Source: Acidimicrobiales bacterium (GTDB lineage: Bacteria; Actinomycetota; Acidimicrobiia; Acidimicrobiales; MedAcidi-G1). From it: a stretch of 51,742 bases of DNA. The notes beneath the pieces were generated by a model, which saw only the letters and a program-made list of their open reading frames with translations, ran no database searches and was not told where the DNA came from. Made by a program: the position numbers and the translations under genes. Shown piece by piece: positions 19,483 through 36,173 of this stretch. The DNA is taken from positions 1 through 51,742 of the forward strand of contig JAAZXY010000011.1 of NCBI GenBank assembly GCA_014239855.1. Reading direction: 5' to 3'. How positions within the stretch are numbered: the first letter of the stretch is position 1; each line of letters begins with the position of its first letter.

Positions 19483-20315
19483 CCCTGACCGACCATTCCG
19501 TCCTGAACCTCCGACCCGTCTCCGGCCGTATCGGCGTCGAGGTGCTCGACCCCGACCTCGACCTCCTGGTGGGTGACGACGCCGCCCGGGCCGATCTCCA
19601 CCGGGCACTCCTTGACCACCACGTGGTCGTCCTGCGGGGCCTCCACCCCACGCCGGAGCAGCACATCGCCCTGGCCTCGGCGTTCGGTGAACCGATCATC
19701 CCCGAGGACCACCTTCCCAAGCATCCCGACCATCCGCTGGTCTGCCGGTTCGACAGCGGCGTGGGCTACAAGGCCGACAAGTGGCACACCGACGGCACGT
19801 TCCGTGACGTCGTCCCCAGCGTGGCCGTCCTGACCATGCGGACCTCGCCGGCCGCCGGTGGCGACACCGTGTGGGCCAACTGCTGTGCGGCCTACGAGGA
19901 CCTCTCCAACGGCATGAAGCGCCTCCTCGACGGGCGCAAGGCCCTCCACGACCAGGGCCCGGACGCCAAGGCCGTGCATCCGGTGGTGGTGGCCCACCCC
20001 GACACCGGACGGCCCATCCTGTTCGTCAACGACATCTTCGCCCGGGGGATCATGAACCTGCCCCCCGAGGAGAGCAACGCCATCCTGCCGTTCCTGGTCC
20101 GCCACGTGAGTCGACCCGAGTTCACCTTCCGGCATTCGTGGGCCGAGGGTGACGTCGTCGTGTGGGACAACCGCAGCACCCAGCACTACGCCCTCTTCGA
20201 CTTCGAGGGCCAGCGGGTCGTCGAACGGGTGCACGTGGCCGGCGGCCCCATGGAGGCCCACCGGATCGACCCCGACACGTCCACCGCTGAGACGGCGACG
20301 GACGGCCCCTGGTGA
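19479..20315 (+). CDS. TauD/TfdA family 2-oxoglutarate-dependent dioxygenase
   Basis: A 278-aa protein. The iron-binding H-x-D is in KWHTDGTFRDVVPSVAVL and the distal His in WDNRSTQHYALFDFEGQR; an Arg follows for 2-oxoglutarate. The family couples 2-oxoglutarate decarboxylation to hydroxylation, typically of sulfonates, sulfate esters or phenoxyacids. Overlaps of 4 bp on both sides (MarR upstream, unknown downstream, the latter as GTGA) make translational coupling very likely. The substrate is unknown. Confidence 0.93.
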   Translation: MTLTDHSVLNLRPVSGRIGVEVLDPDLDLLVGDDAARADLHRALLDHHVVVLRGLHPTPEQHIALASAFGEPIIPEDHLPKHPDHPLVCRFDSGVGYKADKWHTDGTFRDVVPSVAVLTMRTSPAAGGDTVWANCCAAYEDLSNGMKRLLDGRKALHDQGPDAKAVHPVVVAHPDTGRPILFVNDIFARGIMNLPPEESNAILPFLVRHVSRPEFTFRHSWAEGDVVVWDNRSTQHYALFDFEGQRVVERVHVAGGPMEAHRIDPDTSTAETATDGPW

Positions 20316-21886
20316 GCGTCGGCTACCACAACCCGTTTCTGGCCGACAGCGAGAACCCGATCGCCCACGGGCGGTGCGACCAGCAGGACTGCACCGAGCT
20401 GGAAGGGGGCCTGCCGTCCGGAGGTTCCGCTGGCCAACTGCTCCACGAGACGGGCCGCCAGTTCACGTGGCTGGGACCCGGTCACTTCGGTGGACTGTTC
20501 TCGGGCCTGTACCCCGACGGGAGGCGAACCATCTGGAGCAACGGACGCGAATGCATCGCCAAGCTCGACCACGACACCCTGGAGGTCCTGGCCCGGTTCG
20601 ACCTCTCCCACGAACGTCCCGACGAGCCGACCAGCAGCAAGGCCGACTGGGAAGCCGGTGTGGCCGGCCTCGATGACCTGGAGGGCGACGAGGCGGTGAT
20701 GCACGCCGCCGACCTGGCAGCCCGCTTCATGACCGGTCTGGACGGCGTCTACGCCCTGCTGGACCACGAGCACACCCTGTTCCTGGGGCGCAAGACGGGG
20801 GCGGTGGCCTACGCCGAGGTGGACCCCACCGACCGGCACTCGGCCATTGTCGAGAAGGCCCGCTGGGAGAAGCCCCCGGAGGTCGAGGGCTTCTTCGTGG
20901 GGGTCAACATGACGCCCGACGGCCGCCTCGTGCTGTCCACCGACCACGGATGGCTGGTCAGCCTGGCCCGGGACTTCTCCGACTACGTGGCCGTCCAGAT
21001 TCCCGGCGCGGCCGAGGACGCGGCGGAGCACTGCGCCCGCATGGAGGCTGAGCGGGGCAACACCGGCTACGGCTGGGTCCGGACCAGCCTCTGCTGCGAC
21101 GACGCCGGCGGCGTCTACATCAGTTCGGTCGACCACTCCCACAAGGCCATCTGGACGGGTGACCGTTTCTCGTTCGACGAGGCCGACGGGGCGTGGAGCG
21201 CCGAGTACCGCAACGGCACCGGCCGGGGATCGGGCACCACGCCGTCGCTCATGGGCTTCGGTCCCGACGAGGACCGCTTCCTGGTCATCGGCGACGGTGA
21301 TGACGTCGTCAACATCACGCTGCTGTGGCGCGACGAGATTCCCGACGACTGGGAGCAGCTGCCCGGTGCCCCCTCGCGGCGCATCGCCGGCCTGGGGCCG
21401 GCCCACATGGGCGACCCGACCCGGACCGAGATCCAGACCGAGCAGTCGATCACCGTGGCCGGCTACGGCGCCATGACGGTCAACAACGAGCCCGGCACCC
21501 GTCCCGACTGGCTGCCGGCCCGGGGCGCCCGCCTTCTGTGCTTCTTCCTCGGCCACCAGGAGCGGTTCACGCCGTTCGGGATGCACAAGTACCGGTGGAA
21601 CCCGGACACCCGGGAGTTCCGGGAGGACTGGGTCACCACCGAGGTGAGCTCGCCCAACTCGGTGCCCTACGTCAGCCAGGGATCCGACACCGTCTACACG
21701 TGCGGGACCCGCGGCGGGAAGTGGACCGTCGAGGCCGTGAACTGGTCGACCGGCGAGTCCCGTGGCCACTGGGTGCTCGGCGATTCCCGGTTCAACACCC
21801 TCGGCGGGGGCGTGCACCTCGACGGTGAGGGTCGGGTCATCTTCGGCAACATCTTCGGCAAGACCCGGATCCTGGATACCCCCTGA
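20312..21886 (+). CDS. Conserved hypothetical protein, 524 aa, propeller-like repeats
   Basis: Not recognised. The GTG start overlaps the TauD stop (GTGA). The sequence has several short beta-rich units reminiscent of a six- or seven-bladed propeller: PDGRRTIWSNGRECIAKLD, PDGRLVLSTDHGWLVSLARD, DDAGGVYISSVDHSHKAIW, DEDRFLVIGDGDDVVNITLL and DGEGRVIFGNIFGK. There is no signal peptide and no transmembrane segment. Two Cys occur as SLCCDD. The gene is clearly real: its long frame follows codon usage and it is coupled to the dioxygenase. A function in binding or converting the TauD substrate is speculative. Confidence 0.85.
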   Translation: MSVGYHNPFLADSENPIAHGRCDQQDCTELEGGLPSGGSAGQLLHETGRQFTWLGPGHFGGLFSGLYPDGRRTIWSNGRECIAKLDHDTLEVLARFDLSHERPDEPTSSKADWEAGVAGLDDLEGDEAVMHAADLAARFMTGLDGVYALLDHEHTLFLGRKTGAVAYAEVDPTDRHSAIVEKARWEKPPEVEGFFVGVNMTPDGRLVLSTDHGWLVSLARDFSDYVAVQIPGAAEDAAEHCARMEAERGNTGYGWVRTSLCCDDAGGVYISSVDHSHKAIWTGDRFSFDEADGAWSAEYRNGTGRGSGTTPSLMGFGPDEDRFLVIGDGDDVVNITLLWRDEIPDDWEQLPGAPSRRIAGLGPAHMGDPTRTEIQTEQSITVAGYGAMTVNNEPGTRPDWLPARGARLLCFFLGHQERFTPFGMHKYRWNPDTREFREDWVTTEVSSPNSVPYVSQGSDTVYTCGTRGGKWTVEAVNWSTGESRGHWVLGDSRFNTLGGGVHLDGEGRVIFGNIFGKTRILDTP

Positions 21887-21951: not shown

Positions 21952-23520
21952 ATGGCAGGAATCCCCGATACCCGCCGCGACCGGCGAGGCGAGGCGCTGG
22001 ACGTACTCGACGGCGGCACGTTCGACGCCATTGTCGTGGGTGGCGGCATCAACGGCGCCGTCTCGGCGCTCGCCCTGTCGGCCCACGGGCTGCGCGTCGC
22101 CCTCGTGGAGCGGAACGACTTCGCCTCGGGCACCAGCCAGGAGTCGTCGTGCATGGTGTGGGGCGGCTTCAAGTACCTCGAGAGCCGCGACCTGAAGCTG
22201 GTGGCCGGGCTGTGCGACTCGCGCAACCGTCTGGCCCGGGCCTTCCCGACCCGGCTGGCCGAGACCCGGTTCCTGGCCGCCATGGACCGGGGGGCGCCCT
22301 TTCCGCCGTGGTTCGCCGCCCTCGGTGCCGTGGCCTACTGGGGCCTCGGTCGACTGGCCACCCAGCCGCCCCGTCATCGTTCGTCGGCCACCATCGAACG
22401 CTTGGAGCCGTCGGTCGACACGTCGCTGGTGCGTGGCGGCATCGAGTACTCCGACTACCTGCTGGTCGACAACGACGCCCGCTTCGTGTCCGAGATGGCC
22501 ATCGGGTCGACCCGTCACGGAGCCGCCATTGCCAACCGGGTCGAGGTGGTGGGCGCCGAACCGGGCGTCGACGGCTGGCGACTCTCGCTGGTCGACCGCG
22601 TGTCGGGCCGGGCGCTGGAGGCTTCGGCGCCGCTGGTTGTGAACGCTGCCGGTCCGAACGTGCCGGTGGTGGGCGATCTGGTCGGGGCGACCACCGACCA
22701 CCGGCTGGTGTTCTCCAAGGGCATCCACCTCGTGGTGCCCCGCATCACCGACTCGGGTCGGATCCTGGCCTTCTTCGACGACGACGAGCGGTTGTTCTAC
22801 GTGCTGCCCATGGGGGAGCGGTCGGTCATCGGCACCACCGACACGCCGGTGGATGACCCGGAGGTGGCGGTCACCGCCGAGGATCGGGCCTTCGTGCTGG
22901 AACAGATCAACGCCCGCATCGACCGGGTGACGCCCCTGAGCGAAGCCGACGTGATCGCCGAACGGTGCGGGGTGCGGGCCCTCGTGGTGCCCCCCGGCGG
23001 CTCGGGTGAGGGCCGCGACTGGACCGAACTGTCTCGTGAACATGCCGTGGAGGTGGATCGCACGCTCGGCGTGGTGTCAGTCCTGGGCGGCAAGTTGTCG
23101 GACTGCCTCAACGTGGGCGAGGAGGTCGTCGAGGCGGCAGCGGCCTGCGGGCTGGTCGGCAGAAGGCCGGTGCGGCGCTGGTACGGCGAACCGGGGCGCA
23201 CGGCCCGACGGCGTTACGACGAGCGGTCCGCCGCACTGGCCCTGGATCCGGTGGTGGCTGCCCACCTGTGGCGCCGCCAGGGCATGCGGGCCTTCCCGGC
23301 GCTCGACCTGATGGACGCCGACCGGTCCATGGGTGAACCGATGGGGGGCCTGGTGCCCATGACCGAAGCCGAGGTGCGGGTCATGGCCGACCACGAATGG
23401 ATCGTCGAAGCCGACGACTTCCTGCGGCGGCGGACCATGCTCGCCCAGGTCGAACGCGCCGAGGATCTGGCCGCCGACCCATCGGTGACACGGGCCATGG
23501 AGCTCCTCGGCCTGTCCTGA
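21952..23520 (+). CDS. GlpD-like FAD-dependent glycerol-3-phosphate dehydrogenase family protein
   Basis: A 522-aa flavoprotein. The N-terminal FDAIVVGGGINGAVSALAL, followed by VALVERNDFASGTSQ, is the FAD-binding start of the DAO/GlpD family. MGERSVIGTTDTPVDDPE and GKLSDCLNVGEEVVEAA match the C-terminal GlpD pattern. The segment after the Thr-Ser reads ESSCMVWGGFKYLESR, where classical GlpD has a Lys-Leu-(Ile/Val)-His before GG. This is therefore a divergent member, and its substrate may not be glycerol 3-phosphate. It lies 65 bp after the unknown 524-aa gene and 152 bp before the tandem paralogue array. Confidence 0.8.
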   Translation: MAGIPDTRRDRRGEALDVLDGGTFDAIVVGGGINGAVSALALSAHGLRVALVERNDFASGTSQESSCMVWGGFKYLESRDLKLVAGLCDSRNRLARAFPTRLAETRFLAAMDRGAPFPPWFAALGAVAYWGLGRLATQPPRHRSSATIERLEPSVDTSLVRGGIEYSDYLLVDNDARFVSEMAIGSTRHGAAIANRVEVVGAEPGVDGWRLSLVDRVSGRALEASAPLVVNAAGPNVPVVGDLVGATTDHRLVFSKGIHLVVPRITDSGRILAFFDDDERLFYVLPMGERSVIGTTDTPVDDPEVAVTAEDRAFVLEQINARIDRVTPLSEADVIAERCGVRALVVPPGGSGEGRDWTELSREHAVEVDRTLGVVSVLGGKLSDCLNVGEEVVEAAAACGLVGRRPVRRWYGEPGRTARRRYDERSAALALDPVVAAHLWRRQGMRAFPALDLMDADRSMGEPMGGLVPMTEAEVRVMADHEWIVEADDFLRRRTMLAQVERAEDLAADPSVTRAMELLGLS

Positions 23521-23537: not shown

Positions 23538-23598
23538 GTTGGCATTTCCTTGGGACATCACCCCCACCCTTGACCCCCCCCTATCTCAATGAGATGGT
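23538..23598 (+). promoter_or_regulatory. Shared upstream element/promoter of paralogue 1
   Basis: GTTGGCATTTCCTTGGGA begins at 23538, then TTGACC at 23570-23575, a C run and GATGGT at 23593-23598 (17-bp spacer). The same blocks with identical spacing occur upstream of paralogue 5 at 26386-26446. The TTGACC/GATGGT pair could be a -35/-10 promoter, and the 18-bp upstream block an activator site. Conservation against otherwise diverged flanks supports function or a recent block duplication. Confidence 0.55.
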
Positions 23599-23672: not shown

Positions 23673-24308
23673 ATGAAGCTCTGGAATCGTTTGATGGTCA
23701 TCGGTACCTCGGGGGGCGGGGCGGCGGCCGCAGTGCCGGCCATGGTGGGTGCCGTCGAGCACTTCAATGCGAACACCGACTACGACTTCGCGCTCTGGCA
23801 GGGCCTCCTCGGCGGACCGGTGGGGTCGTGTGCCGTGTCCACACGGTTCGAGTCCTACGGCGAGTACACGGCCGCCATGCAGGAGATGAACGCACGTCCG
23901 GAAACCCTGGCCGCGGTCGGCTCGGTCACCGAGGCCCTGGCCGGTGGGCCGGAGGACAGCGTCTGGAACATCATCCATGCGGCGGGTGACACATCCGAGG
24001 TGCCGAACACGGTGGCCAACGTCATCAATCGCTTCGACATGGAGCAGATGCCCGCGGCGGTGGCCCAGGCCATCGACTTCGCCGACTTCACCCACGACCT
24101 GACCGGCACCCCGGCGACGGTGTGCACCAGCATCTGGGGGACGGGACCCACGGTGCGGATCATCTGGGGCTACTCGTCGGTCAGCGACTTCGAGCAGCAG
24201 ACCGAGTCGGCCATGGCCTCGCCCGCCTTCGCCGAGAAGGTGGCCGCCAACGCTGGTGGACCACGTCCGACCGAGAGCCAGACCGGCGTGGCCACGCGCA
24301 TCGCCTGA
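23673..24308 (+). CDS. Tandem paralogue family copy 1 (unknown ~210-aa protein)
   Basis: Function not recognised. The ATG at 23673 is chosen because its MKLWNR aligns with MYLWNR in the sister genes, and GAAGGGCGGG precedes it. The 211-aa protein splits into two similar halves. The first has AVEHFNANTDYDFALWQGLL, then a glycine loop, then FESYGEYTAAMQEM, ending VWNIIHAAGD. The second repeats with ATVCTSIWGTGPTVRI, then WGYSSVSDFEQQ, ending VATRIA. The beta-alpha-beta pattern suggests fused ferredoxin-like (dimeric alpha/beta barrel) domains; this is inference. It is first of five paralogues. FALWQGLLG-x-PVG is shared specifically with copy 5. No signal peptide. Confidence 0.85.
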   Translation: MKLWNRLMVIGTSGGGAAAAVPAMVGAVEHFNANTDYDFALWQGLLGGPVGSCAVSTRFESYGEYTAAMQEMNARPETLAAVGSVTEALAGGPEDSVWNIIHAAGDTSEVPNTVANVINRFDMEQMPAAVAQAIDFADFTHDLTGTPATVCTSIWGTGPTVRIIWGYSSVSDFEQQTESAMASPAFAEKVAANAGGPRPTESQTGVATRIA

Positions 24309-24337
24309 CCGACAGAACCACCGAAAGGAAGCAGCAC

Positions 24338-24967
24338 ATGTACCTGTGGAATCGACTGATGGAGCCGAACCCGGCGAGGTTCGCCGACGCGGGGCCGGCC
24401 ATGGCCGACGCCGTCAACCACGTCAACGAGGTGTCCGCCTACCAGTTCAACCTGTGGGCCGTGGTCCTGGGTCGGGCGGGCTTCGGCGTTTCGGCCCTCT
24501 GCCCCGACTTCGGCCCCTTCTCCGATGAGATGGCGGCCCGGGGCATGGAGGACGACGTCTTCCGGGACAAGGTGAATGCCGTGGGAGCGTGTATGCACGG
24601 CGTTCCCGAGGACTCGCTCTGGCAGGTCGTCCACTCGGTGGGCGACTGGCCCGGCCCGCCGGCGGTGATCGCCAACGCCATCTGGCGTCCGATCCAGGGC
24701 AGCAACCTGCTCGACAACGTTGCGTGGGCCATGGAGATGACCAGTTACGTCGGTGAGGCGTTCGGGGCGCGGAGCGTGGTGTGCACCGGCGGACCGGGAA
24801 CCGCCCTGTCGGTCCGTGTCTACAACGGGTACGACTCGGTGGCCGACTGGCAGGAGCGAACCGCCGCGGTAGCAGCGGACGCCGGATGGCAGGACCGGAT
24901 GCAGGCCGTGACGGCAATCGCCGACGGCTCGACGCTTGACACCGGCCTGATCCGACGAATCGTCTGA
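24338..24967 (+). CDS. Tandem paralogue family copy 2 (unknown ~209-aa protein)
   Basis: Function not recognised. Start ATG at 24338 with AAAGGAAG 7 bases upstream; an upstream open frame would run into copy 1. Family landmarks: MYLWNR at the start, AVNHVNEVSAYQFNLWAVVL, CPDFGPFSDEMAARGMED, then GVPEDSLWQVVHSVGD closing the first half, YNGYDSVADWQERT in the second half, and LIRRIV at the end. Copies 2 and 3 share the DFG-x-FSDEMA-x-RGMED block, so they are mutually close. It lies 29 bp after copy 1, so the two are co-transcribed. Confidence 0.85.
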   Translation: MYLWNRLMEPNPARFADAGPAMADAVNHVNEVSAYQFNLWAVVLGRAGFGVSALCPDFGPFSDEMAARGMEDDVFRDKVNAVGACMHGVPEDSLWQVVHSVGDWPGPPAVIANAIWRPIQGSNLLDNVAWAMEMTSYVGEAFGARSVVCTGGPGTALSVRVYNGYDSVADWQERTAAVAADAGWQDRMQAVTAIADGSTLDTGLIRRIV

Positions 24968-25000
24968 TCAACAGCACCAACCAGAGAAGGGAAACCAGAC

Positions 25001-25633
25001 ATTTACCTGTGGAACCGAGAGATGTTCCTGTCTCCATCGCACCTCAACGAAGGGGTCGCTGGGCTGGTGGATGCGGTGACGCACGTGAACAGCGTGTCGG
25101 ACTACGAGTTCCGGGTGTGGGCGACGGTCCTCGGTACTTTCGGACGGGTGGGTGTCGGCTCGACCTGTGAGGACTTCGGAGCCTTCAGCGACGAGATGGC
25201 CACCCGGGGCATGGAGGACGAGGTCTTCCGTGCGAAGGTCGACGCGGTCGGGCAGTCAATGGCCGGCAATCCCGAGGATTCGGTCTGGAACATCCTCCAC
25301 ACCACCGGTGACGCCTACGAGGTCCAGCCGGTGATCGCCATCATCGACAACCGACTGGAGGTCGACCAGATGCCCGGGGCGGTGATGGGCAGCATCGACA
25401 TGGCCGACTACCTCAACGGCCTGACCGGTACCGCCGTCACGGTCGCCGTCAGCCAGTGGGGGACCGGTCCGTCGGTCCGGATGATGTTCGGCTACGACTC
25501 GGTGGGCCAGGTGCAGGAGCGCACCGCGGTGGCCACGGCCGACCCCGGCTTCATGGAGCGCGCCAAGGCCTTCCAGAACGACGTCGGTCGATCCATCGAG
25601 AGCCGGTCCTCGGTTCTCCGACGTATCGCCTGA
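25001..25633 (+). CDS. Tandem paralogue family copy 3, apparent ATT start
   Basis: Function not recognised. Homology to the sister genes begins at codon ATT (25001): ATT-TAC-CTG-TGG-AAC-CGA corresponds to ATG-TAC-CTG-TGG-AAC-CGA in copies 2 and 4. A purine-rich AGAGAAGGGA lies 8-17 bases upstream. Either ATT initiates (known but rare) or translation starts at the ATG at 25022, dropping seven conserved residues. The rest is intact at about 210 aa: HVNSVSDYEFRVW, CEDFGAFSDEMATRGMED, NPEDSVWNILHTTGD, SQWGTGPSVRMMFGYDSV, VLRRIA. The spacing from copy 2 is 33 bp. Confidence 0.78.
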   Translation: MYLWNREMFLSPSHLNEGVAGLVDAVTHVNSVSDYEFRVWATVLGTFGRVGVGSTCEDFGAFSDEMATRGMEDEVFRAKVDAVGQSMAGNPEDSVWNILHTTGDAYEVQPVIAIIDNRLEVDQMPGAVMGSIDMADYLNGLTGTAVTVAVSQWGTGPSVRMMFGYDSVGQVQERTAVATADPGFMERAKAFQNDVGRSIESRSSVLRRIA

Positions 25634-25634
25634 C

Positions 25635-25663
25635 CAACAGTCCCTGGAAAATCAACAGTCCCT
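25635..25663 (+). repeat. Short direct repeat between paralogues 3 and 4
   Basis: CAACAGTCCCT occurs at 25635-25645 and again at 25653-25663, just after the copy 3 stop and before the ribosome-binding site of copy 4 (AGAGAAGGAG). It is probably a small duplication within the spacer. A related CAACAG also opens the spacer between copies 2 and 3. Confidence 0.6.
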
Positions 25664-25680
25664 AGAGAAGGAGAGAAGAG

Positions 25681-26307
25681 ATGTACCTGTGGAACCGACA
25701 GTTCATGTTCAGCCCGGAAAGGTTCTTCGAGGGCATTGAGGCGCTTTCGGCTGCGATCGCCTACGCCAACACGAACTCCGATTACGACTTCGATATCTGG
25801 ATGCCAGCGGGTGTTGGCACGCTCGGCGCCGCGGGCGTCTCGTCACGGGTGGCCGAGTTCGCACCGTTTGCCGACGATATGGCTGCACGGGCAGCAGACC
25901 CCGAGTTCCAGGCGCTGGGCAGGGCCATCGGGCCGTGTCTGGCCCAGAACCCGGAGGACGTCCTGAACCGGATCGTTCACGTGGCGGGCGAGCGGGGCGA
26001 CGTGCCGGCAGTGAGCGCCTTGATCGGATGGCAGGCCCACCCGGCCGACCTCAAGAAGTCCATTGGATTTGCCGTGGAGATGGCCGAGCACCAGCACGGT
26101 GTGCATGGCCAGACGGTGGTCGTCGGGAGCAGTATGTGGGGGACCCCCAACGGCGTCATGATGGTCGCCAATTACGACTCGGTGGCCGAGTTCGAAGAGG
26201 CCAGCAATGCCATCCAGGCTGAGGGGTCCTTCCTGGACCGCATGGAGGCCGGAGCGATCGGTCGGGCCGAGACCATCCAGAGTTGGGTGATGCGTCGGGT
26301 CACCTGA
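25681..26307 (+). CDS. Tandem paralogue family copy 4 (unknown 208-aa protein)
   Basis: Function not recognised. ATG at 25681 is preceded by AGAAGGAGAGAAG, the strongest ribosome-binding site of the array. The sequence keeps the family frame: MYLWNRQFMFSPERFF, AYANTNSDYDFDIWMPAGV, then NPEDVLNRIVHVAGE closing half one, and SSMWGTPNGVMMVANYDSVAEFEEA with WVMRRVT closing half two. The C-rich loop seen in copies 2 and 3 is replaced by SSRVAEFAPFADDMAARAAD. The spacing to copy 3 is 47 bp, while 188 bp separate it from copy 5. Confidence 0.85.
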   Translation: MYLWNRQFMFSPERFFEGIEALSAAIAYANTNSDYDFDIWMPAGVGTLGAAGVSSRVAEFAPFADDMAARAADPEFQALGRAIGPCLAQNPEDVLNRIVHVAGERGDVPAVSALIGWQAHPADLKKSIGFAVEMAEHQHGVHGQTVVVGSSMWGTPNGVMMVANYDSVAEFEEASNAIQAEGSFLDRMEAGAIGRAETIQSWVMRRVT

Positions 26308-26385
26308 TCGGGACCCGTTGACGAACGCCGGATCGGCTGTCCCGAGGGGGACGGCGGGTCCGGCGTCCGTCGCGTCCGAGGGCGG

Positions 26386-26446
26386 GTTGGCAATTGCCTG
26401 GGAGAGCGGCCCGTCGCTTGACCCCCCCCATGACCCCTGGGACGGT
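26386..26446 (+). promoter_or_regulatory. Shared upstream element/promoter of paralogue 5
   Basis: GTTGGCAATTGCCTGGGA starts at 26386, TTGACC is at 26418-26423, and GACGGT is at 26441-26446 after a 17-bp spacer. The order and spacing are the same as at 23538-23598 upstream of copy 1 (32 bases from the block start to TTGACC in both). It probably drives copy 5 as a second transcription unit. GAAGGGCGGG before the GTG start is also shared with copy 1. Confidence 0.55.
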
Positions 26447-26495
26447 GGAATGCTCGCCGGAATGGCCGGCGACGGGACTGAAGGGCGGGACCCCC

Positions 26496-27125
26496 GTGTA
26501 CCTCTACAACCGACAGCTGACCATCAAGCCGGACTCCTTGCGGGCCGGAAGTGCCGCACTGGTCGATGCGGTCAGCCATCTGAACGCCAACTAGTCCAAC
26601 CAGTTCGCCCTCTGGCAGGGCCTCCTGGGTGCCCCGGTGGGCACGTTCGGCGCCTCGTGCCGGATCGACTCCTACGGCGACTTCACCGATGAGGTGGCCC
26701 GGCTCTACGCCGAGGACGAGGCCTACGTCGACAAGGTGGAGACCATGGGCACCCACATGGACGGCAGCGCCACCGATTCCCTGTGGAACATCGTCCACGC
26801 GGTCGGCGAACAGGGCGAGGTGCCCAACGTCTGCTCGGTGGTCCGGTTCAAGGTCATCCCGGCGGAGCTGAAGGCCGGCATGGCCATGGCCGTCGAGATG
26901 GTCGACTTCTTCCACTCGATCCACGGCGCCCCGATGACCGCTTCGATGAGCATGTGGGGCGAGGCCAGCGCCATCGGGATCATCGGCGGCTACGACTCGG
27001 TGCAGGCGTTCGAGGAAGGCTCCCGGGCCGTCCAGGCCGAGGGGTCGTTCTTCGACCGTCTGGAGGCCAACGCGATGGGCATCCCCGGCTCCAACATGCA
27101 CGGCGTCATGCGCCGCATCGTCTGA
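26496..27125 (+). pseudogene. Tandem paralogue family copy 5, interrupted by in-frame TAG
   Basis: Homology starts at GTG 26496 (VYLYNRQLTIKP, matching MYLWNR) and runs to 27125. Codon 33 (26592-26594) is TAG: AVSHLNAN, stop, then SNQFALWQGLLGAPVG, where copy 1 reads NANTDYDFALWQGLLGGPVG. A single C-to-A change from TCG (Ser, as in copy 4) would create it. The remaining 177 codons have no other stop and keep all family landmarks (DSLWNIVHAVGE, GGYDSVQAFEEG, VMRRIV). This suggests a recent nonsense mutation, an assembly error, or re-initiation downstream, for example at GTG 26637 or later. Classed as probably broken. Confidence 0.7.
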
Positions 27126-27180: not shown

Positions 27181-27675
27181 ATGCAGCTCTTCCAGCGACG
27201 GCGGTGGATCCACCCGGACCGGGTGGCCGGTGGGCACGACGCGTTCGTGGCCCAGTTGTCGTGGATCGACGCCCATACCGGCCTGTCCATGGCCGGGTGG
27301 CGGCGGGTGGACGCGGACGGCGAACCGGGGGCCATCCTGGCCACCACCACCTACGGCGACCACGCGTGGTTCCTGGCCGAGGTGGCCCGGCTTCAGACGC
27401 TCGCCGACTACCCGCCGGTCAACAACGCCACGGCGGCCCTGACCGTCGGCGAGGACCTCTTCGAACGCTGGGACGCCCCAGAGGGGATCGGGCACGACTG
27501 GGTGCTCGGCGACCCCTCATTCCGTCAGGCGACAGGATCTACGCCTTCGCCATCCGGTCAACGAGCGTGGAGCAACGCGGAGGGGGCTGACGGGCTTCTC
27601 ACCTGGTTTCCGCAACACGACCAACCCGTCGGCGGCGGTGGCCACCGGCTCGAGGAGTGGGCCCGGATCCACTGA
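27181..27675 (+). CDS. Hypothetical protein, possible half-length relative of the paralogue family
   Basis: 164 aa. ATG at 27181 follows GGGGGAG about 8 bases upstream. The start MQLFQRRRWIHPDR resembles the M-x-L-x-x-R...P-x-R start of the paralogues, and AFVAQLSWIDAHTGLSMAGW followed by a glycine turn and TTTYGDHAWFLAEVARL parallels their first half. There is no counterpart of the second half. After about residue 105 the tail is low-complexity (GSTPSPSGQRAWSN) and looks degraded or unrelated. Homology is by eye and weak. It lies 55 bp after copy 5. Confidence 0.55.
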   Translation: MQLFQRRRWIHPDRVAGGHDAFVAQLSWIDAHTGLSMAGWRRVDADGEPGAILATTTYGDHAWFLAEVARLQTLADYPPVNNATAALTVGEDLFERWDAPEGIGHDWVLGDPSFRQATGSTPSPSGQRAWSNAEGADGLLTWFPQHDQPVGGGGHRLEEWARIH

Positions 27676-27702: not shown

Positions 27703-29055
27703 TCAGCCGGACCCGTCGGTGGGCCACGTCCAGTGGCTGGGGTGACGCTCGTCGACCTCGCAGTCGTGTTCGTCACGATGGTGGTGCCATTCGGCCAACG
27801 GGTGCAGCACCCACTTGCCCACCGAGTGGGCGATCTCGCCCGAACGGGCCAGCACCGGCTGGAACGTGGACTGCCGCTCGATGGGCACCGCCTGGCGGAC
27901 CCGGGTCCGGTAGGCGAGGTAGAGGGCCAGTACGCCCAGGCAGGACGCCAGCGACCAGAAGTAGGCCGACGGGCCGAACGCCTCCACGGTGATGCCGATG
28001 CTCATCGGTGCCGCCATGGCCCCGAAACTGGATGCCAGCACCAGAGTGGACGCGGCGGCCACCCGCTTCTCGGGCGGCACCCAGTCGTTGGCCAGGGCCA
28101 CGAACTGTCCGTACAGCGGGAACACGAAGGCCCCGAACGCCATGTTGACGATGATCAGGACGATGCTGGTGGCCGGCGTGATGGCCCCGACCACGGCCAG
28201 TCCACACGAGATGGACGTCACGATCAGGATGATGGCCCGGCGGGGGTAGCGGTCCGACAGGGTGCCCAGGGGCATCTGCAGCAGCACCGCACCGACCACC
28301 GCGGCCGACGTGAACAGGGTGATCCGCCCGGCACCCATGCCCGACTGGGTGCCGAAGACCGCGGCCATCGAGGTGGCCGCCGACTGGACGTACGAACACA
28401 GGACGATCCCCACCACGGCCGACGGGATGGTCCGGTACAGCTCCCGGAGCGGCATCTTGTCGTCGCTGGGTACCGGGGCAGCCGTCGACGCCGACAGGGT
28501 CACGGGCACCACGGCCAACGAGATCAGCACCGATGAGAGCACGAACAGTTCGAAGCCGTCGGCCGACCCCACGTTCAGCAGCATCTGGCCGACGGCCGTC
28601 CCGCCCATCATGATCATCATGTAGGCGCCGAGGATGCTGCCCCGGGTCTCGTTGGTGGCCCGGTCGTTCAACCAGCTCTCGAGGATCACGAACACGCCGG
28701 CGTTGCACACGCCGCTGATGAAGTAGACGGCCGACCAACTCGGCGTGGTGACCAGCACAGCGTTGACCAGTACGGCGGTGGACGAGACCGAGGCCAGCGC
28801 GGCGAACACCCGGATGTGACCCACCGACGAGAGGGCGACGGGAATCAGCTTGGCGCCGAAGAGGTAGCCGGCGAAGTGGACGGCCATGACCACACCCAGT
28901 GCGCCGGCACCGATGCCCTCCGATTCGCCACGGATGGGCAGCAGGATCCGCTGGAGGCCGTTGCCGACCTGCAGGAAGGCAAAGGCCAGGAACAGCGCCC
29001 AGACGCCCAGCAGCGACGAGATGGTCGACGTCCGGGCGGCGGTGGGGGCGTTCAA
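27703..29055 (-). CDS. MFS transporter
   Basis: A 450-aa protein with about 12 transmembrane segments, including WALFLAFAFLQVGNGLQRIL and VVGAVLLQMPLGTLSDRYPRRAIIL, which contains the conserved G-x-L-S-D-R-x-x-R-R loop. The C-terminal 50 residues are hydrophilic and His-rich (EWHHHRDEHDCEVDE). The start overlaps the stop of the 4HBT thioesterase gene (ATGA), so the two are coupled. The location next to sarcosine oxidase genes suggests uptake of a methylated amine or related acid, but MFS sequence alone does not reveal the substrate. Confidence 0.92.
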   Translation of the reverse strand: MNAPTAARTSTISSLLGVWALFLAFAFLQVGNGLQRILLPIRGESEGIGAGALGVVMAVHFAGYLFGAKLIPVALSSVGHIRVFAALASVSSTAVLVNAVLVTTPSWSAVYFISGVCNAGVFVILESWLNDRATNETRGSILGAYMMIMMGGTAVGQMLLNVGSADGFELFVLSSVLISLAVVPVTLSASTAAPVPSDDKMPLRELYRTIPSAVVGIVLCSYVQSAATSMAAVFGTQSGMGAGRITLFTSAAVVGAVLLQMPLGTLSDRYPRRAIILIVTSISCGLAVVGAITPATSIVLIIVNMAFGAFVFPLYGQFVALANDWVPPEKRVAAASTLVLASSFGAMAAPMSIGITVEAFGPSAYFWSLASCLGVLALYLAYRTRVRQAVPIERQSTFQPVLARSGEIAHSVGKWVLHPLAEWHHHRDEHDCEVDERHPSHWTWPTDGSG

Positions 29056-29552
29056 CGAAGCGTCCTCACACCCTTCCCGACATGGTCGGGGGACGGAACT
29101 CCGGCATGGGCCGCCGCGGCGGCCAGGGCGGCCGAAGCCACCGGTTCGACCATGGGCGCCACACCCGGACCGTCAGGGCCCTGGGCGACGTGGAGCATCA
29201 TGCACTCCTGAGTGGCCACCGGTTCAGCCCGCTCTTCGCTTGAGGGGTCGTCGGCGAACAGATAGTGGTGCACATGGAGACGCTTGGCGTCGGCCCCCAG
29301 TACCAGCGAATCGGTGTGGATCTCGACACCCTGCTTGACCTCGCGCAGATACCGGATACGGGTCTCCACGGTGTAGAAGCTGCCGTGAGCGGCCAGGTAG
29401 TCGGGACCGAACCCGAGGGCGATCAGGACCTCGTCGGTGGCCTGGCCGAACGCCACGCCGTAACAGCCCTCGGTGAGGTGGCCGTTGTAGTCGATCCACT
29501 CGGCGGGCACGACGGTGCGCCACACCCGGAGGGGTTCGGTTGCTGTCTCCAT
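29052..29552 (-). CDS. 4HBT-type acyl-CoA thioesterase, betainyl-CoA thioesterase-like
   Basis: A 166-aa single hot-dog domain. WIDYNGHLTEGCYGVAFGQA carries the D-Y-N-G-H motif of 4-hydroxybenzoyl-CoA thioesterase relatives. This variant with Tyr-Asn-Gly-His-(Leu/Met)-Thr-Glu also occurs in thioesterases of carnitine degradation (from memory of that family). TRIRYLREVKQGVEIHTDS continues the fold. GGGAGG stands six bases before the ATG. If it releases betaine from betainyl-CoA, it would feed the Rieske/sarcosine oxidase genes upstream; that link is inference. Confidence 0.85.
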   Translation of the reverse strand: METATEPLRVWRTVVPAEWIDYNGHLTEGCYGVAFGQATDEVLIALGFGPDYLAAHGSFYTVETRIRYLREVKQGVEIHTDSLVLGADAKRLHVHHYLFADDPSSEERAEPVATQECMMLHVAQGPDGPGVAPMVEPVASAALAAAAAHAGVPSPDHVGKGVRTLR

Positions 29553-29700
29553 TGGAGACCTCCCACCTAGATCAGATTCAGGGATTCCGTCTGGGACTCG
29601 TCCGGCACTGGCGCGAACGCGCGCAATCTAGGACCGTCCGAGGATCAGACGCAATCACCCTCCGTGGTCAGAAGGCACAGGTGGGCGTCAGGGTCCGGAA

Positions 29701-31146
29701 TCAGCCCAGCGGGCCCGGCGGCAGCGTGGCCGGGTCGGTGATGGCCAGCGCACCGATATCTGGCGCCGGAGCGGTCCCGAACACCTCCTCGGCGACCCGG
29801 ACATGCTGAAGCAGCGCACGGTCCCGGTTCCACCGGCCCACCAGTTGCAGTCCGATGGGTAGACCGCTCTCGGTGAACCCGGCGGGTAACGAGACAGCGG
29901 GCGCCCCGGTGCTGGTGATCCGACAACAGGACCGCATCCAGTCCTTGTAGTGGGGCAGGGTCATGCCTTCGATCTCGGACACCGATGCCCATCCGATCGG
30001 GAAGGGCGGGACCTGACTGACCGGGGCCACCATCAGATCGAATCCGGGACTCCCGGCCGCTCCGGTCAGGAAGTCGTCCCATCGGGTCTTGGCGGCCATC
30101 TCGGACATCTGGGCCGCCTCGATCTCGTCATCGCTGAGCCCTTTTCCGAGTCGGAGTTCGTACTGGACGTCTTCCTTGATCCGCTCGTCGCCCAGGAGGT
30201 GTCCCCACGCGTTCCAGTAGGAGAGGGCCCGTAGGCGCTCAAACGACAGTTCGGAGATCTGGAGATCCGGTTCGGCCTCGATGATCTGCCAACCGGCATC
30301 GGCCAGAGCGGTGACCGCTGCATCCACGACCCGGGCCACCTCGCGGTCCACCGGCAACCCGCTGAGGGTTCGTGAGTAGGCCACTCGCGGCGCGGCCGGG
30401 ACGTCAGGTCTCGATGAAGAGCCGGTGAGGGCATCGTTGTAGAGGGCCAGGTCGGTAACGGTTCGAGCCATGGGGCCGGTGGTGGGCATCTGGACTGCCC
30501 CGCCACTCCATCGCAGCAACTCACCGTCAAGGTTCCAGTTGCTGGCCTCCACCGGGTTTCGTCCGGTGGATGGCCGGAAGCCGACCACCCCACAGAAGGA
30601 GGCCGGATTCCGCAAGGAACCACCGAGATCCGACCCGTCGGCCAGAGACAACGATCCACAGGCCAGGGCTGCGGCGGCTCCACCGCTGGAACCTCCGGGG
30701 GTTCGCGTCGGGTCCCACGGGTTTCGGGTCGTGCCCATCACGGCGTTGTAGGTCTGGGACCCTGATCCGAACTCCGGCGTGTTGGTCTTGCCCACCGGAA
30801 CCATCCCGAGGCCCTTGACGGTCGCCACGAGGGAGTCGTCCTCGTCGGGGACGTTCTGGGCATAGGCGAGGCTGCCGTAGGTGGTGCGGACCCCGGCGGT
30901 GGGCATCAGGTCCTTGAACGCCGTGACCAGTCCCCGCAGCGGGGCGCCCTCAAGCAGCGTCGGATCGTCGTCGAGTCGGCCGGCCAGGTCCTCTGCTGTG
31001 TCCCAGTGGACGGTGGGAATGGCGTTGACGACCGGCTCGGTCATCTCGGCCCGGGTGCGGCAGTCGGCCAGCAACTCCCGGCAGGACGCCTGGCCAGCGT
31101 CCAGCAGGGCCTTCTGTTCGGTGGCGGTGAGCGCGGCGAGATCCAT
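29701..31146 (-). CDS. Amidase (amidase signature family)
   Basis: A 481-aa amidase. The signature GGSSGGAAAALACGSLSLAD, followed by GSDLGGSLRNPASFCGVVGF, holds the Ser-cis-Ser-Lys triad elements (Lys in TFVAF-like AFKDLMPTAGV near residue 95). Family members hydrolyse amides to carboxylate plus ammonia. It lies 47 bp after soxG on the same strand and 148 bp before the thioesterase gene, so it may be the last gene of the sarcosine oxidase transcript. The substrate is not predictable. Confidence 0.92.
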   Translation of the reverse strand: MDLAALTATEQKALLDAGQASCRELLADCRTRAEMTEPVVNAIPTVHWDTAEDLAGRLDDDPTLLEGAPLRGLVTAFKDLMPTAGVRTTYGSLAYAQNVPDEDDSLVATVKGLGMVPVGKTNTPEFGSGSQTYNAVMGTTRNPWDPTRTPGGSSGGAAAALACGSLSLADGSDLGGSLRNPASFCGVVGFRPSTGRNPVEASNWNLDGELLRWSGGAVQMPTTGPMARTVTDLALYNDALTGSSSRPDVPAAPRVAYSRTLSGLPVDREVARVVDAAVTALADAGWQIIEAEPDLQISELSFERLRALSYWNAWGHLLGDERIKEDVQYELRLGKGLSDDEIEAAQMSEMAAKTRWDDFLTGAAGSPGFDLMVAPVSQVPPFPIGWASVSEIEGMTLPHYKDWMRSCCRITSTGAPAVSLPAGFTESGLPIGLQLVGRWNRDRALLQHVRVAEEVFGTAPAPDIGALAITDPATLPPGPLG

Positions 31147-31193
31147 CGCCGACGGACCCTAGGGCACGCCGACAATGGATCCGCCACTGATGA

Positions 31194-31775
31194 CTAGTGG
31201 GGGTGCAGCTCCCACCCAGCGGGGATCGACAGCCCGAACTCGGTGCAGGCGTCGGCCACGGCGATGAACAGGAACTTCCCGAATGACCGTTCGCAACTGA
31301 TCAGGAACGACGTCTGACCGCCCTGGTCGTCGCGCACCCAGTCGCAGCCCACGGCGCCCAGCGAGCCGCTGAACACGGCGCCGTTCGGCGTGAGCTCGTC
31401 GGACAGGTCCAGGTTGCAGATCTTGGACAACGCCGAGGTGGCGTTCGCCCCGCTGATCCGCAACATGGCCCGTCCGTGGGTGATGTCGATGACCGTCACG
31501 AAGCCCTCGGTGGGCACGGTCGCCGAGATGGCGCCGGAGCGACCGGGGTCCCCGTAGATCGTCCACTCGTCGGGTCGGGTACCGCACACCAGGTCGCCGT
31601 CGGCGTTCCGTCTGCTGCGCCCGTAGGACACGCCCAGGGCGGCCGCGGCAGCCGTGGCGGCGCCGGCCCGGACCTGGATCTTTGTGGTGGCGTAGGCATC
31701 GGCCAGCGTCACGCCCCCGTCAGGGGAGGTGAGCGGACCGACGTCCACGGGACTGTGCATGGTGGTCTCAGACAC
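31194..31775 (-). CDS. soxG: Sarcosine oxidase gamma subunit
   Basis: A 193-aa protein. The sequence VTVIDITHGRAMLRISGANA, then LSKICNLDLSDELTPNGAVF and DWVRDDQGGQTSFLISCERS, matches SoxG, a small relative of the aminomethyltransferase domain that stabilises the heterotetramer. It overlaps the soxA stop by 8 bp and completes a soxB-D-A-G order that is classical for the tetrahydrofolate-using enzyme. It acts in the cytoplasm as part of the complex that demethylates sarcosine to glycine. Confidence 0.9.
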   Translation of the reverse strand: MSETTMHSPVDVGPLTSPDGGVTLADAYATTKIQVRAGAATAAAAALGVSYGRSRRNADGDLVCGTRPDEWTIYGDPGRSGAISATVPTEGFVTVIDITHGRAMLRISGANATSALSKICNLDLSDELTPNGAVFSGSLGAVGCDWVRDDQGGQTSFLISCERSFGKFLFIAVADACTEFGLSIPAGWELHPH

Positions 31776-34620
31776 GCTGGCGTGCTCCTTCGTGATCGAA
31801 GTGGGCGTGGTGCTCCTGCACCAACGCCTTGATGCGTCGACCGTCGGCCATCAGCACCGTGATCTCGGTCCCGGCGGCCGACAGCGAGGGATCGACCTGC
31901 CCGAGGCAGATCGACCGGCCCAGCGTCGGCGACATCCGACTCGAGGTGATGCGACCCAGGATCGTGTTCTGGTCGCCGTCCACGATCTGGGCGGCCTCCT
32001 CGGGAACGATCGAGCCGTCCACGGTCTGGATGCCCACCAGGATCGGCAGGTCGTCCCGTCCGTAGGCGTGCTTCAACTCGGGCAGGCCCAGGGTGTCGGG
32101 CTTGTCGAGCTTCACCAGGCCACCGAGGCCGGCCGTCGGGGCCTTGGACAGCCCGTCGGTGTCCTGACCCACGATGTAGTGGCCCTTCTCCAGACGCAGG
32201 ATCCGCTGGGCCTCGACGCCGAACGGCGCACACCCCAGGTCGACTCCGGTCTCCAGCAGGGTCTCCCACACGTGGAGGGCGTGCCCGGACGGCACGTGGA
32301 CCTCATAGGAGAGCTCCCCGGTGAAGCCGATCCGCCAGATGATGCAGTCCGACACGCCGGCCACCTTGCCGGTCCGCACGCTGAAGTACGGGAAGGCATC
32401 GGCGCTCAGGTCGACGCCCTCGGTGAGGCGCTCCAGCAGCGTCCGGCTGTTGGGGCCGGCCACGTTGATGCTGGTCAGCCCACCGGTGACGGCCGTGACG
32501 TGCACGTCCCACTCCGGATGGGCGGTCTGCAGCCAGTCCTCGAGCATCTCCCAGATGGCTCCGGCACCTGACGACGTGGTCGTCATGAGCCAGTGGTCCT
32601 CGCCCAGACGACCGGTCACGCCGTCGTCGGAGACGACACCGTCCTCGGCCACCATGGCGCCGTAGCGCACCCGACCCACGTCGAGCTTCTGCCACTTGTT
32701 GACGTACACCAGCTCCAGGAGCTTGGGCACGTCGGCACCACGGAGGTCCAACTTGCCCAGCGGCGTCACGTCGATCAGGCCGACGTTGGCCCGGACGTTG
32801 GCCGCTTCGGCCATGGCGTCGCCGTACTGGTCGGGACGTACCCACTGGCCGGCCAGGAGCGGCGTCGACCCGTGGGCCTCGTGCCAGTCCTGCAGGGCCG
32901 AGCGACGCACCGGCTCGAGGATCCGCCCGGCAAGGGCGCCCAGCGAGATCGGCGAGTACGGCGGGCGCCACACGGTGGTCCCGATGTCGGCCATCTCGAC
33001 CCCGTTGGCCTCGGCCAGCACCGAGGCGGCGTTGACCGTCTCGAGCTTGCCCTGGGACGGGCCCATGGTCACGGTGGTGTACCGCTTCATGAGCTCGATG
33101 GAGTCGAAACCCTCCTTGGAGGCCTGGACGAGATCCTTGGACGAGACGTCCTCGGAGAAGTCGACCATGCCGTGCGTGGTGCTCCGGTAGCACTCCGGAT
33201 GCGGGTTCCGAGCCAGGGGAGTGCGGCTGTCGGCCACCTCTTCCGGCTTGGCCCAGGTCGGAGCGCCAGAGCGTGCCGTCTGACTGACCCGGTCGTGACG
33301 GCGTCGCAGCGAACGGTTGGCCGCCAACTCGCCGGTGGCCCGACCATGGGCCTCCAGTTCTGCCGTCGAACCGTCGCCGGCGATGCCACCGGTGGCCAGG
33401 ATGTTGCTGGGCAACGAGTTGGAGAAGTACCTCGCCGCGACCGGGTCGTAGACCGGTCTGTCGCCACCCATGTTCAGCAGTGACGTCGGAGCGGTCCAGC
33501 CGGTGGCGGTTACGACTGTGTCGGCGCTCAGCATCCGTCCGTCATTCACCTGCACCTTCGACACCCGACCCCGGCCCTCGACAGCCACGATGCTCTCGCC
33601 CTTGCGGGCGTCCAGCACGGCCACGATCTCCACGCCGGCCCGCTCCAGGTCGGCAACGGCTCCGTCACCCTCCTCGTTGGCCGTCATGACAACGGCCTTG
33701 GTGCCGGGCTTCACGCTGAACAGGTTGATGAGTCGTCGGGCGGCACCGGCGAGGATGACCCCGGGGGTGTCGTTGCCGGCGAACACGTAGGGACGCTCGA
33801 TGAGGCCGGCGGCCACCACCATCACGCCGGCTCGCGCCTTCACGAGACGCTCGGGGGCAGTGGCGTGGCTCCGCTGATTCACGGCGATCCAGTTGTGGTC
33901 GTAACGACCGGTGACCGTCGAGTCGACCAGCACCTCGATGTTGGCGTGCGCCTCACAGGCGGCGGCCAACTCGGCGGCCTTCGCCCGCTGGGCATCGTCT
34001 CCCCAACGGAGGTGACCACCCAACTCGGTGTAGTGCTCGACGAGCAGGACCGAGGCGCCAGCGTCGGCTGCGGCCAGTGCCGCACCCATGCCGGCCGGAC
34101 CGCCGCCGGCCACCAGTACGTCCGGGTGGACGTACCGCTTGTCGTAGGCCCCGTGAGTGCTGGTCTCCCAGTGGATCTCGCCACCCGGGGCGAACTTCCG
34201 CAGGATCTTCTGGTAGAGCGGCCACAGGAACTGCGGTCGCATGAACGTCTTGTAGTAGAAGCCCGATGACAGGAAGCGGCCCACCAACTGGTTGGACGCC
34301 GCCAGGTCGAACTTCAGGCTCGGCCACACGTTCTGCGTGGAGACCACCATCCCGGCCTGCAGCTTGCGGCTGCCTGCCCGGACGTTGGGCTCGTCACCGA
34401 CCTGCAGAAACAGGTTCGGATCCCAGTGGTCGGCGGTCAGGATGCCCCGCCTCCGGTGGTACTTCATGGAGCGGCCGAACACGTCGACGCCGTTGGCGGC
34501 GATGGCCGAGGCAATGGTGTCGCCCTCGTAGCCGGTCATCTGCTTGCCGTTCCAGGTGAACGACAGGCTGGTGGACCGGTCGATCACCTCTCCGGGCTGT
34601 GCGGGAAGTCGATTCGTCAT
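31768..34620 (-). CDS. soxA: Sarcosine oxidase alpha subunit
   Basis: A 950-aa multidomain subunit, full length for the family. An N-terminal ferredoxin-like segment (SLSFTWNGKQMTGYEGDTIA) is followed by a NAD-binding Rossmann motif VLVAGGGPAGMGAALAAADA at about 168-187. The second half is a GCV_T-like folate domain (WVRPDQYGDAMAEAANVRAN, IDVTPLGKLDLRG, GLTSINVAGPNSRTLLERL). The enzyme oxidises sarcosine to glycine, passing the methyl as 5,10-methylene-THF or formaldehyde, with H2O2. It overlaps soxD by 4 bp and soxG by 8 bp. Confidence 0.96.
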   Translation of the reverse strand: MTNRLPAQPGEVIDRSTSLSFTWNGKQMTGYEGDTIASAIAANGVDVFGRSMKYHRRRGILTADHWDPNLFLQVGDEPNVRAGSRKLQAGMVVSTQNVWPSLKFDLAASNQLVGRFLSSGFYYKTFMRPQFLWPLYQKILRKFAPGGEIHWETSTHGAYDKRYVHPDVLVAGGGPAGMGAALAAADAGASVLLVEHYTELGGHLRWGDDAQRAKAAELAAACEAHANIEVLVDSTVTGRYDHNWIAVNQRSHATAPERLVKARAGVMVVAAGLIERPYVFAGNDTPGVILAGAARRLINLFSVKPGTKAVVMTANEEGDGAVADLERAGVEIVAVLDARKGESIVAVEGRGRVSKVQVNDGRMLSADTVVTATGWTAPTSLLNMGGDRPVYDPVAARYFSNSLPSNILATGGIAGDGSTAELEAHGRATGELAANRSLRRRHDRVSQTARSGAPTWAKPEEVADSRTPLARNPHPECYRSTTHGMVDFSEDVSSKDLVQASKEGFDSIELMKRYTTVTMGPSQGKLETVNAASVLAEANGVEMADIGTTVWRPPYSPISLGALAGRILEPVRRSALQDWHEAHGSTPLLAGQWVRPDQYGDAMAEAANVRANVGLIDVTPLGKLDLRGADVPKLLELVYVNKWQKLDVGRVRYGAMVAEDGVVSDDGVTGRLGEDHWLMTTTSSGAGAIWEMLEDWLQTAHPEWDVHVTAVTGGLTSINVAGPNSRTLLERLTEGVDLSADAFPYFSVRTGKVAGVSDCIIWRIGFTGELSYEVHVPSGHALHVWETLLETGVDLGCAPFGVEAQRILRLEKGHYIVGQDTDGLSKAPTAGLGGLVKLDKPDTLGLPELKHAYGRDDLPILVGIQTVDGSIVPEEAAQIVDGDQNTILGRITSSRMSPTLGRSICLGQVDPSLSAAGTEITVLMADGRRIKALVQEHHAHFDHEGARQRV

Positions 34621-34865
34621 GACGCCTCCTGACCACGGATCTCATTGGTGGCCGTGTTGCGCTCGATGGTGAAGTACCGGCGGCAACCGCCCCGGCAGTA
34701 CCAGGTCTCGGTGACCCAGCCGGCCGGATTGGGCCGCATGTACAGGTACTCACGCCACTCGCTCAACGAGCAGGTGGCGGGATCGGGGCGGGAGATGACC
34801 TCTCCGGCCGGTCGGAGGTCGCCGGAGTTCCGGGGACCACAGTTGGGACAGGGAACAATGATCAT
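34617..34865 (-). CDS. soxD: Sarcosine oxidase delta subunit
   Basis: 82 aa, normal length. It starts MIIVPCPNCGPRN with Cys at 6 and 9, and ends with ETWYCRGGCRRYFTIERNT, Cys at 57 and 61. In the better-known subunits the third zinc ligand is a His four residues before the last Cys. Here that position is Cys57, giving a four-Cys site. The protein is a structural zinc subunit of the heterotetramer. It shares one base with the soxB stop and overlaps soxA by ATGA. Confidence 0.93.
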   Translation of the reverse strand: MIIVPCPNCGPRNSGDLRPAGEVISRPDPATCSLSEWREYLYMRPNPAGWVTETWYCRGGCRRYFTIERNTATNEIRGQEAS

Positions 34866-36154: not shown

Positions 36155-36173
36155 GGGCAGTCTTCCCTTCTTC

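Follow-up and report, generated by a model that had tools for sequence, protein, structure and literature searches.

Old, diverged tandem paralogues of a predicted two-half alpha+beta barrel family at a variable slot in an Acidimicrobiales genus

Five consecutive genes for related proteins of about 210 residues lie at positions 23673–27125 of a contig from an Acidimicrobiales bacterium (JAAZXY010000011.1, assembly GCA_014239855.1; MedAcidi-G1 in the GTDB lineage), which raises the question of whether such an array is growing, shrinking or being restocked from elsewhere. Our window is this whole contig (G000:C22), 51,742 nucleotides of a 2.35-Mb metagenome-assembled genome (MAG) that is 83% complete. 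The explanation we favour, and regard as probable rather than secure, is that an old array of cassettes, each comprising a promoter, a leader and an open reading frame (ORF), has been losing copies, making hybrids by recombination and exchanging cassettes horizontally, and that the window species kept five. Each cassette would encode a two-half alpha+beta barrel, with the array fixed between a gene for a flavin adenine dinucleotide (FAD)-dependent oxidoreductase and a diverged relative of the family at 27181. The ancestor may have carried a multi-gene array like that of the window, in which recombination between copies would delete genes and create hybrids; cassettes would also spread horizontally, with the window species retaining most of them.

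All five copies are on the plus strand, and an earlier reading of this DNA made from its letters alone (the sequence-only reading) located them correctly: copy 1 at 23673..24308 (211 aa), copy 2 at 24338..24967 (209 aa, with its own Shine–Dalgarno (SD)-like AAAGGAAG), copy 3 at 25001..25633 (210 codons, with an ATT start behind the SD-like GAGAAGGG and the first ATG at 25022), copy 4 at 25681..26307 (208 aa) and copy 5 at 26496..27125 (GTG start). Copies 1–4 are separated by 29, 33 and 47 bp, copy 2 starting 29 bp past copy 1. The heterogeneous decay which that reading proposed is borne out by the ATT start of copy 3 and by an in-frame TAG in copy 5 (26592–26594), a gene with intact relatives in G002, G016 and G003 (G numbers denote genomes). 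Similarity between the copies is far beyond chance: searched at E ≤ 1 against its own MAG, copy 2 finds exactly five places, all of them in the array (E 4.9e-143 for itself, 1.0e-45 for copy 3, 5.8e-30 for copy 5, 6.6e-29 for copy 4 and 8.8e-23 for copy 1). The proposed kinship of copies 2 and 3 holds (43% identity), while that of copies 1 and 5 holds for the N half (42%, versus 37% to copy 3) and fails at full length, where copy 1 is closer to copy 3 (41%) than to copy 5 (38%). Similarly, the ED-S-x-W motif ascribed to all copies is present in copies 1–3 and is replaced by EDVLN in copy 4 and TDSLW in copy 5. A sixth, diverged relative (27181..27675, plus strand, 164 aa) had been overlooked; hhalign places the N half of the family against its first 92 aligned residues (E 1.1e-6, probability 91%). 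The left boundary is the FAD-dependent oxidoreductase gene (21952..23520, plus strand; DAO and DAO_C by Pfam) and, past the 27181 gene, the right boundary is a major facilitator superfamily (MFS) transporter gene (27703..29055, minus strand; Pfam), both syntenic in relatives.

How widespread is the array? A search of the 48 genomes in the GTDB family gave matches in 17 (E ≤ 1e-3), that in G027 being weak (73.9 bits). Full members score above 250 bits, and the next best score among 397 genomes of the order is 93.9; distant relatives are scattered through this order set (45 of 397 genomes at E ≤ 1e-5, 7 of these within the family), where at most 7 candidates were scored per genome, so that copies may be missed. 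A pattern scan of the genome contigs returned three loci only, those of G014, G008 and G009. Within the genus, the genes for the FAD oxidoreductase, the MFS transporter and a 524-aa protein are conserved as flanks at roughly 70–90% amino-acid identity, and all 17 genomes carry the 27181 gene (about 53–66% identical; incomplete in G013), which none of the 31 others of the family has. The slot between the FAD and 27181 genes is readable at 17 loci from 16 genomes, G003 contributing two contigs, while the G013 assembly breaks inside it (L136 G013:C78 and L137 G013:C45). Five genes are found once, in the window; two once, in G005; one gene at ten loci; and none at five (G001, G004, G006, G007 and G011). 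The expectation of a conserved tandem cluster in relatives is thus borne out for the locus and not for the tandem, as a single other genus genome has a pair and none has more. The two versions of the locus in the G003 MAG (L074 G003:C24 and L075 G003:C74; listed contamination 1%) suggest a mixed bin or a duplicated region.

The contents of the slot do not follow its flanks: the tree of family genes is discordant with that of the flanking genes. Copy 4 forms a clade with the slot genes of G015 and G005a (support 100/100), and the slot of G006, the sister of G015, is empty; copy 5 groups with slot genes of other species (support 99/98), copy-5-type genes being present in G002, G016 and G003-C74. 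The G012 and G003-C24 genes fall in a different subfamily, together with the second G005 gene. Close slot genes are under purifying selection (dN/dS, the ratio of nonsynonymous to synonymous divergence, about 0.05–0.23 in six pairs) and change about as fast as the FAD gene (dN of slot versus FAD gene 0.020 versus 0.029 for G014–G008 and 0.017 versus 0.008 for G003-C74/G002). We therefore take replacement or loss, and not fast point mutation, to lie behind the large differences between species.

The empty slots carry traces of deletion, clear in four and weak in the fifth (G011). Compared with G008, the G001 slot keeps the first 69 bp (83%, with the promoter-like site) and the last 44 bp (84%), the gene between them being missing. 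In the G006 slot, 70 bp match G003-C24 at 83% and a further 123 bp, which take in the 3' end of the gene, match it at 80%. The G004 slot retains the downstream spacer, an internal 72-bp stretch (81% to G010) and another, weaker piece, and the G007 slot a 30-bp 3' piece (90% to G005). A copy-4-type scrap ending in SIQSWVMRRIT-stop also lies ahead of the present gene in G003-C24. We scored protein-level relics in 16 stretches by the number of shuffles, out of 100 each, that did at least as well: 0 for G004 and for G003-C24 upstream, 1 for G006 and G011, 2 for G001 (a weak alignment), 4 for G009 downstream, 9 for G010 downstream, 35 for G007 and 23–97 for seven others, with a 0 for the spacer between the two G005 genes that is hard to interpret. 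DNA-level matches back G001 (promoter and spacer), G004, G006 and G007, and not G011. Finally, G005 repeats the order of the window: its first leader resembles that of copy 1 (76%) and is followed by a copy-4-type gene and spacer (71%; window slot 2452–2958, the C half of copy 4 with its spacer, versus G005 440–938). The spacer in question, 188 bp between copies 4 and 5 (26308..26495, plus strand), is homologous to the 184-bp spacer separating the two G005 genes.

Many family genes are preceded by a promoter-like site and a covarying leader hairpin. In the window, such a site lies at 23570..23598 on the plus strand (TTGACC-N17-GATGGT), upstream of copies 1–4, and another at 26418..26446 on the same strand (TTGACC-N17-GACGGT), upstream of copy 5; copies 2–4 would be transcribed from the copy 1 site. 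We fitted the pattern to these sites after the fact. Counting both strands, the window (103,484 nt) has it twice, ahead of copies 1 and 5, and 25 related loci (592,558 nt) have it 14 times: once ahead of each of 10 slot genes, ahead of two non-slot genes and in two empty slots. It is absent ahead of the G012 and G015 genes, four non-slot genes and three empty slots. Downstream of the site is a palindrome, at copy 5 a leader hairpin of 7 pairs (26454..26472, plus strand) that covaries across relatives: 91.8% of cells are paired (best slid control 60.2%), five of the seven pairs have changed on both sides, and the covariation score is 0.455 versus 0.276 in shuffles that leave relatedness in place (none of 500 reached it). 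Further pair types are no more numerous than usual (97 of 500 shuffles), and single-sequence folding energies are ordinary in two of three. A covariance model run over the 48 genomes gave 15 strong matches, all ahead of family genes, 14 being training rows and that of G016 new; this search, with stricter filters and no more than 117 candidates scored in each genome, may have passed over weak leaders elsewhere. We found no support for a leader regulon (15 of 18 matches ahead of family genes, 14 of these training rows, the other three at E 0.002–0.007) and took two sub-threshold Rfam matches as chance. In genus g6 (L069, L070 and L072), a single family gene with a TTGACA site and a covarying leader hairpin is found at a different genomic place.

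Comparison at the DNA level shows one subfamily at unrelated places in two genera, as a unit of about 0.7 kb. The genes of G014 and G028 are 91% identical over 682 bp with a synonymous divergence (dS) of 0.26, versus 1.14 for the gene of the 524-aa protein, and there is no other match in the adjoining DNA, compared over some 1.5 kb on the upstream side and some 0.35 kb on the downstream side; the G014 contig may be mis-binned, and the neighbourhoods differ either way. In the genus itself, the family genes of G004 and G003-C24 differ by a dS of 0.49, versus 1.3–1.6 for flanking genes. Among these non-slot copies, homology starts 40–84 bp ahead of the gene and stops just past it. Such low divergences are what one would expect if the slot were instead a landing place for horizontally moving cassettes, at which the window species collected five diverged ones and the others hold whichever arrived. 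We consider this reading rather unlikely as the whole explanation: the leader and spacer blocks in the same order in the window and G005, the traces in empty slots and the hybrid-looking genes in array order described below all fit loss from an array better, and no recombinase was seen among the Pfam-annotated genes beside the slot; the search for repeats covered exact matches between copies.

Loss from an array by recombination between copies predicts genes whose halves have different kin. After dropping 3 near-duplicate rows of 23, the N-half and C-half trees reject each other in approximately unbiased (AU) tests (2.7e-5 and 4.4e-5), and the total conflict between the halves is 196.6 log-likelihood (lnL) units versus 15.8–111.2 in 20 random column splits. 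The single genes of G014, G008 and G009 have a copy-3-like N half (62–69%) and a C half that is 37–44% identical to copies 4/5 versus 33–35% to copy 3; in G014 the N half is 68% identical to copy 3 and the C half 35% to copy 3 and 42–44% to copies 4/5. Likewise, the N half of the G010 gene is 63% identical to copy 2, with a C half 32% identical to copy 2, 46% to copy 3 and 44% to copy 1. By these identities, the hybrid-looking genes fit a fusion of the N half of an upstream copy to the C half of a downstream one, as would be expected of deletion by unequal recombination in an array of the same order.

Several observations weigh against an ancestral array that shrank by recombination. No other of the 48 family genomes has more than two full members, and the ancestral array is therefore a reconstruction; copies 1–3 lack a supported orthologue clade in other slots. 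Among the empty slots, G001 retains the promoter and no coding relic, and G011 has only a short protein-level trace (one shuffle in 100 as good), with no DNA match at E ≤ 0.01. Since cassettes move horizontally, accretion contributes too. Supports in the half-trees are modest, at 61 for copy 2 with G010 in the N tree, 52–63 around the G014 group and 89 for copy 3 with G010 in the C tree. Of the two odd/even column controls, one was not rejected (p 0.23) and the other was (p 0.0016); given this mixed outcome, the random splits are the better guide. The rejecting control, together with the very long branches of copies 1 and 2, might be taken to mean that the conflict reflects unequal rates or changed selection in one half and not recombination; we find this quite improbable, as the conflict is greater than in any of the random splits and, in both G014 and G010, the block identities change over close to where the halves meet. 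That the copies are products of recent local tandem duplication, as implied by the "locally expanding" system of the sequence-only reading, is hardly credible despite their tight spacing, because they are about 29–43% identical with saturated synonymous sites and a longest exact match of 19 bp, copies 4 and 5 cluster with slot genes of other species, and the slots of relatives carry deletions and relics. On this comparison of sequences, the copies are old paralogues.

What do the genes encode? AlphaFold2 run on copy 2 with eight sequences gave a mean predicted local distance difference test (pLDDT) score of 88.4 and a predicted template-modelling (pTM) score of 0.82, the model having two consecutive beta-alpha-beta-beta-alpha-beta, ferredoxin-like halves fused on one chain. 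According to this prediction, made for copy 2 only, the family is of the two-domain type of the dimeric alpha+beta barrel (DABB) superfamily, of which fused ferredoxin-like halves are a known form (PMC4835899). The best solved structure by Foldseek is 2pgc, followed by matches to 5f9p (anthrone-oxidase-like), 3mcs (a monooxygenase), sulfur oxygenase reductases (SOR) and HemQ-type proteins. The family had been called unrecognised, which is right in that no member passes a curated cut-off in Pfam or NCBIfam and none was assigned to a well-characterised family in Pfam, NCBIfam, PHROGs or PADLOC; it needs amending in that fold and weak sequence signals point to a DABB/NIPSNAP-like superfamily. Copies 1, 3 and 4 score 20.4, 14.7 and 15.2 bits against NIPSNAP (PF07978), below its gathering cut-off of 22.3, and copy 2 and the C part of copy 5 have no NIPSNAP match at E ≤ 1 in Pfam. 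Across a wider set of 37 rows, no Pfam family is matched more often than NIPSNAP (14 of 37 at E ≤ 0.1, best E 2.6e-6). The 37-row profile matches, with its C half, the solved structures of two Agrobacterium proteins (2ap6 and 1vqs, E about 8e-4), while a 22-sequence profile matched no solved structure at E ≤ 1. The family conserves residues R6, N30, W40, G48, S52, D92, G154 and R207, as do most of 22 distant relatives; H99 is retained in 22 of 23 family rows and 12 of 22 distant relatives. We rejected a phage-protein or anti-phage family (one PHROGs match among 6 proteins, at E 0.027, with no stretch passing alone; PADLOC 0 of 7 at E ≤ 0.1), and a plasmid search with copy 2 gave no match. This is a genuine family inside a known fold, and it is the behaviour of the locus that is unusual.

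Neighbouring genes encode, by Pfam, a TauD-type dioxygenase, an OYE-type reductase, a MarR regulator and the FAD oxidoreductase. Our suggestion, a tentative one, is that each protein is a NIPSNAP/ABM-like barrel of binding or oxygenase type that handles a small metabolite of the TauD/FAD/OYE oxidoreductases, one that is probably oxidised or reactive. By analogy with the ABM protein of PMC6689052, a non-catalytic steering role is possible. Different halves would make different pockets, and copy content would therefore tune the substrate range. The fullest version of this idea, a cassette system without evident recombinase, in which tandem promoter-hairpin-ORF units of one barrel family at one locus are swapped across species and genera and recombined at the half-barrel junction to make new pockets from old halves, is speculative, and we consider it unlikely. 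The evolutionary record itself is striking: a single genus offers a whole array, partial ones, scars and genes that look like hybrids, together a compact natural record of two-half barrel diversification, with an exchangeable unit that has its own promoter-like site and hairpin leader and no evident recombinase. If the halves set ligand choice, the hybrids would be ready-made test pairs for substrate change in fused alpha+beta barrels.

The wider neighbourhood adds some observations of its own. The 524-aa protein (20312–21886) has no Pfam or NCBIfam match at E ≤ 1 and is matched in 33 of 48 family genomes; its AlphaFold2 model, from four sequences, had a pLDDT of 30 and was not used as a pathway clue. 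At L065, L075, L078, L079 and L135, about 1.1–1.5 kb of extra DNA separates its gene from the FAD gene (65 bp in the window), and in G009 the FAD gene (L068:3210-4743) is hit as two neighbouring pieces that are out of frame with each other, through either a frameshift or a sequencing error. On the minus strand, 29052–37430 carries genes for a thioesterase-like protein, an amidase, a 193-aa protein without Pfam match, a sarcosine-oxidase-alpha-like protein, a DAO-type oxidase and a Rieske oxygenase, a run that we take to look like methylamine/betaine catabolism.

How does the locus compare with known systems? In the literature searched we found no account of the array and no paper joining NIPSNAP with Acidimicrobi, and we know of no tandem array as a feature of NIPSNAP. 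With that family and the DABB superfamily the proteins share two fused ferredoxin-like halves and weak NIPSNAP matches, but the three matching window copies stay under the cut-off. The marine metagenome protein 2pgc is the best fold match over the full length (TM about 0.7 for the copy 2 model), but is 9% identical, is absent among sequence-level matches at E ≤ 10 and has a title without function. ABM and anthrone-oxidase-like proteins (5f9p; PMC6689052) are alike in fold class, one ABM protein being reported to play a non-catalytic part in pathway fidelity; they differ in that there is no sequence match and that no polyketide genes are present among the 30 window proteins scanned against Pfam. 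At the level of the locus, the paralogue expansions of SAR202 (PMC10444878) are likewise old and diverged, in marine bacteria, with a wider substrate range proposed, but number tens of copies per genome, compared with one locus here. The slot has the conserved flanks and alternative contents of a replacement island (17 loci, zero to five genes, several subfamilies). In the replacement flexible genomic islands of aquatic prokaryotes (PMC4033161), fixed flanks likewise enclose varied content and homologous recombination is invoked; those islands hold clusters for exposed structures, whereas here a single protein family, with hybrid genes, fills 0.1–3.7 kb.

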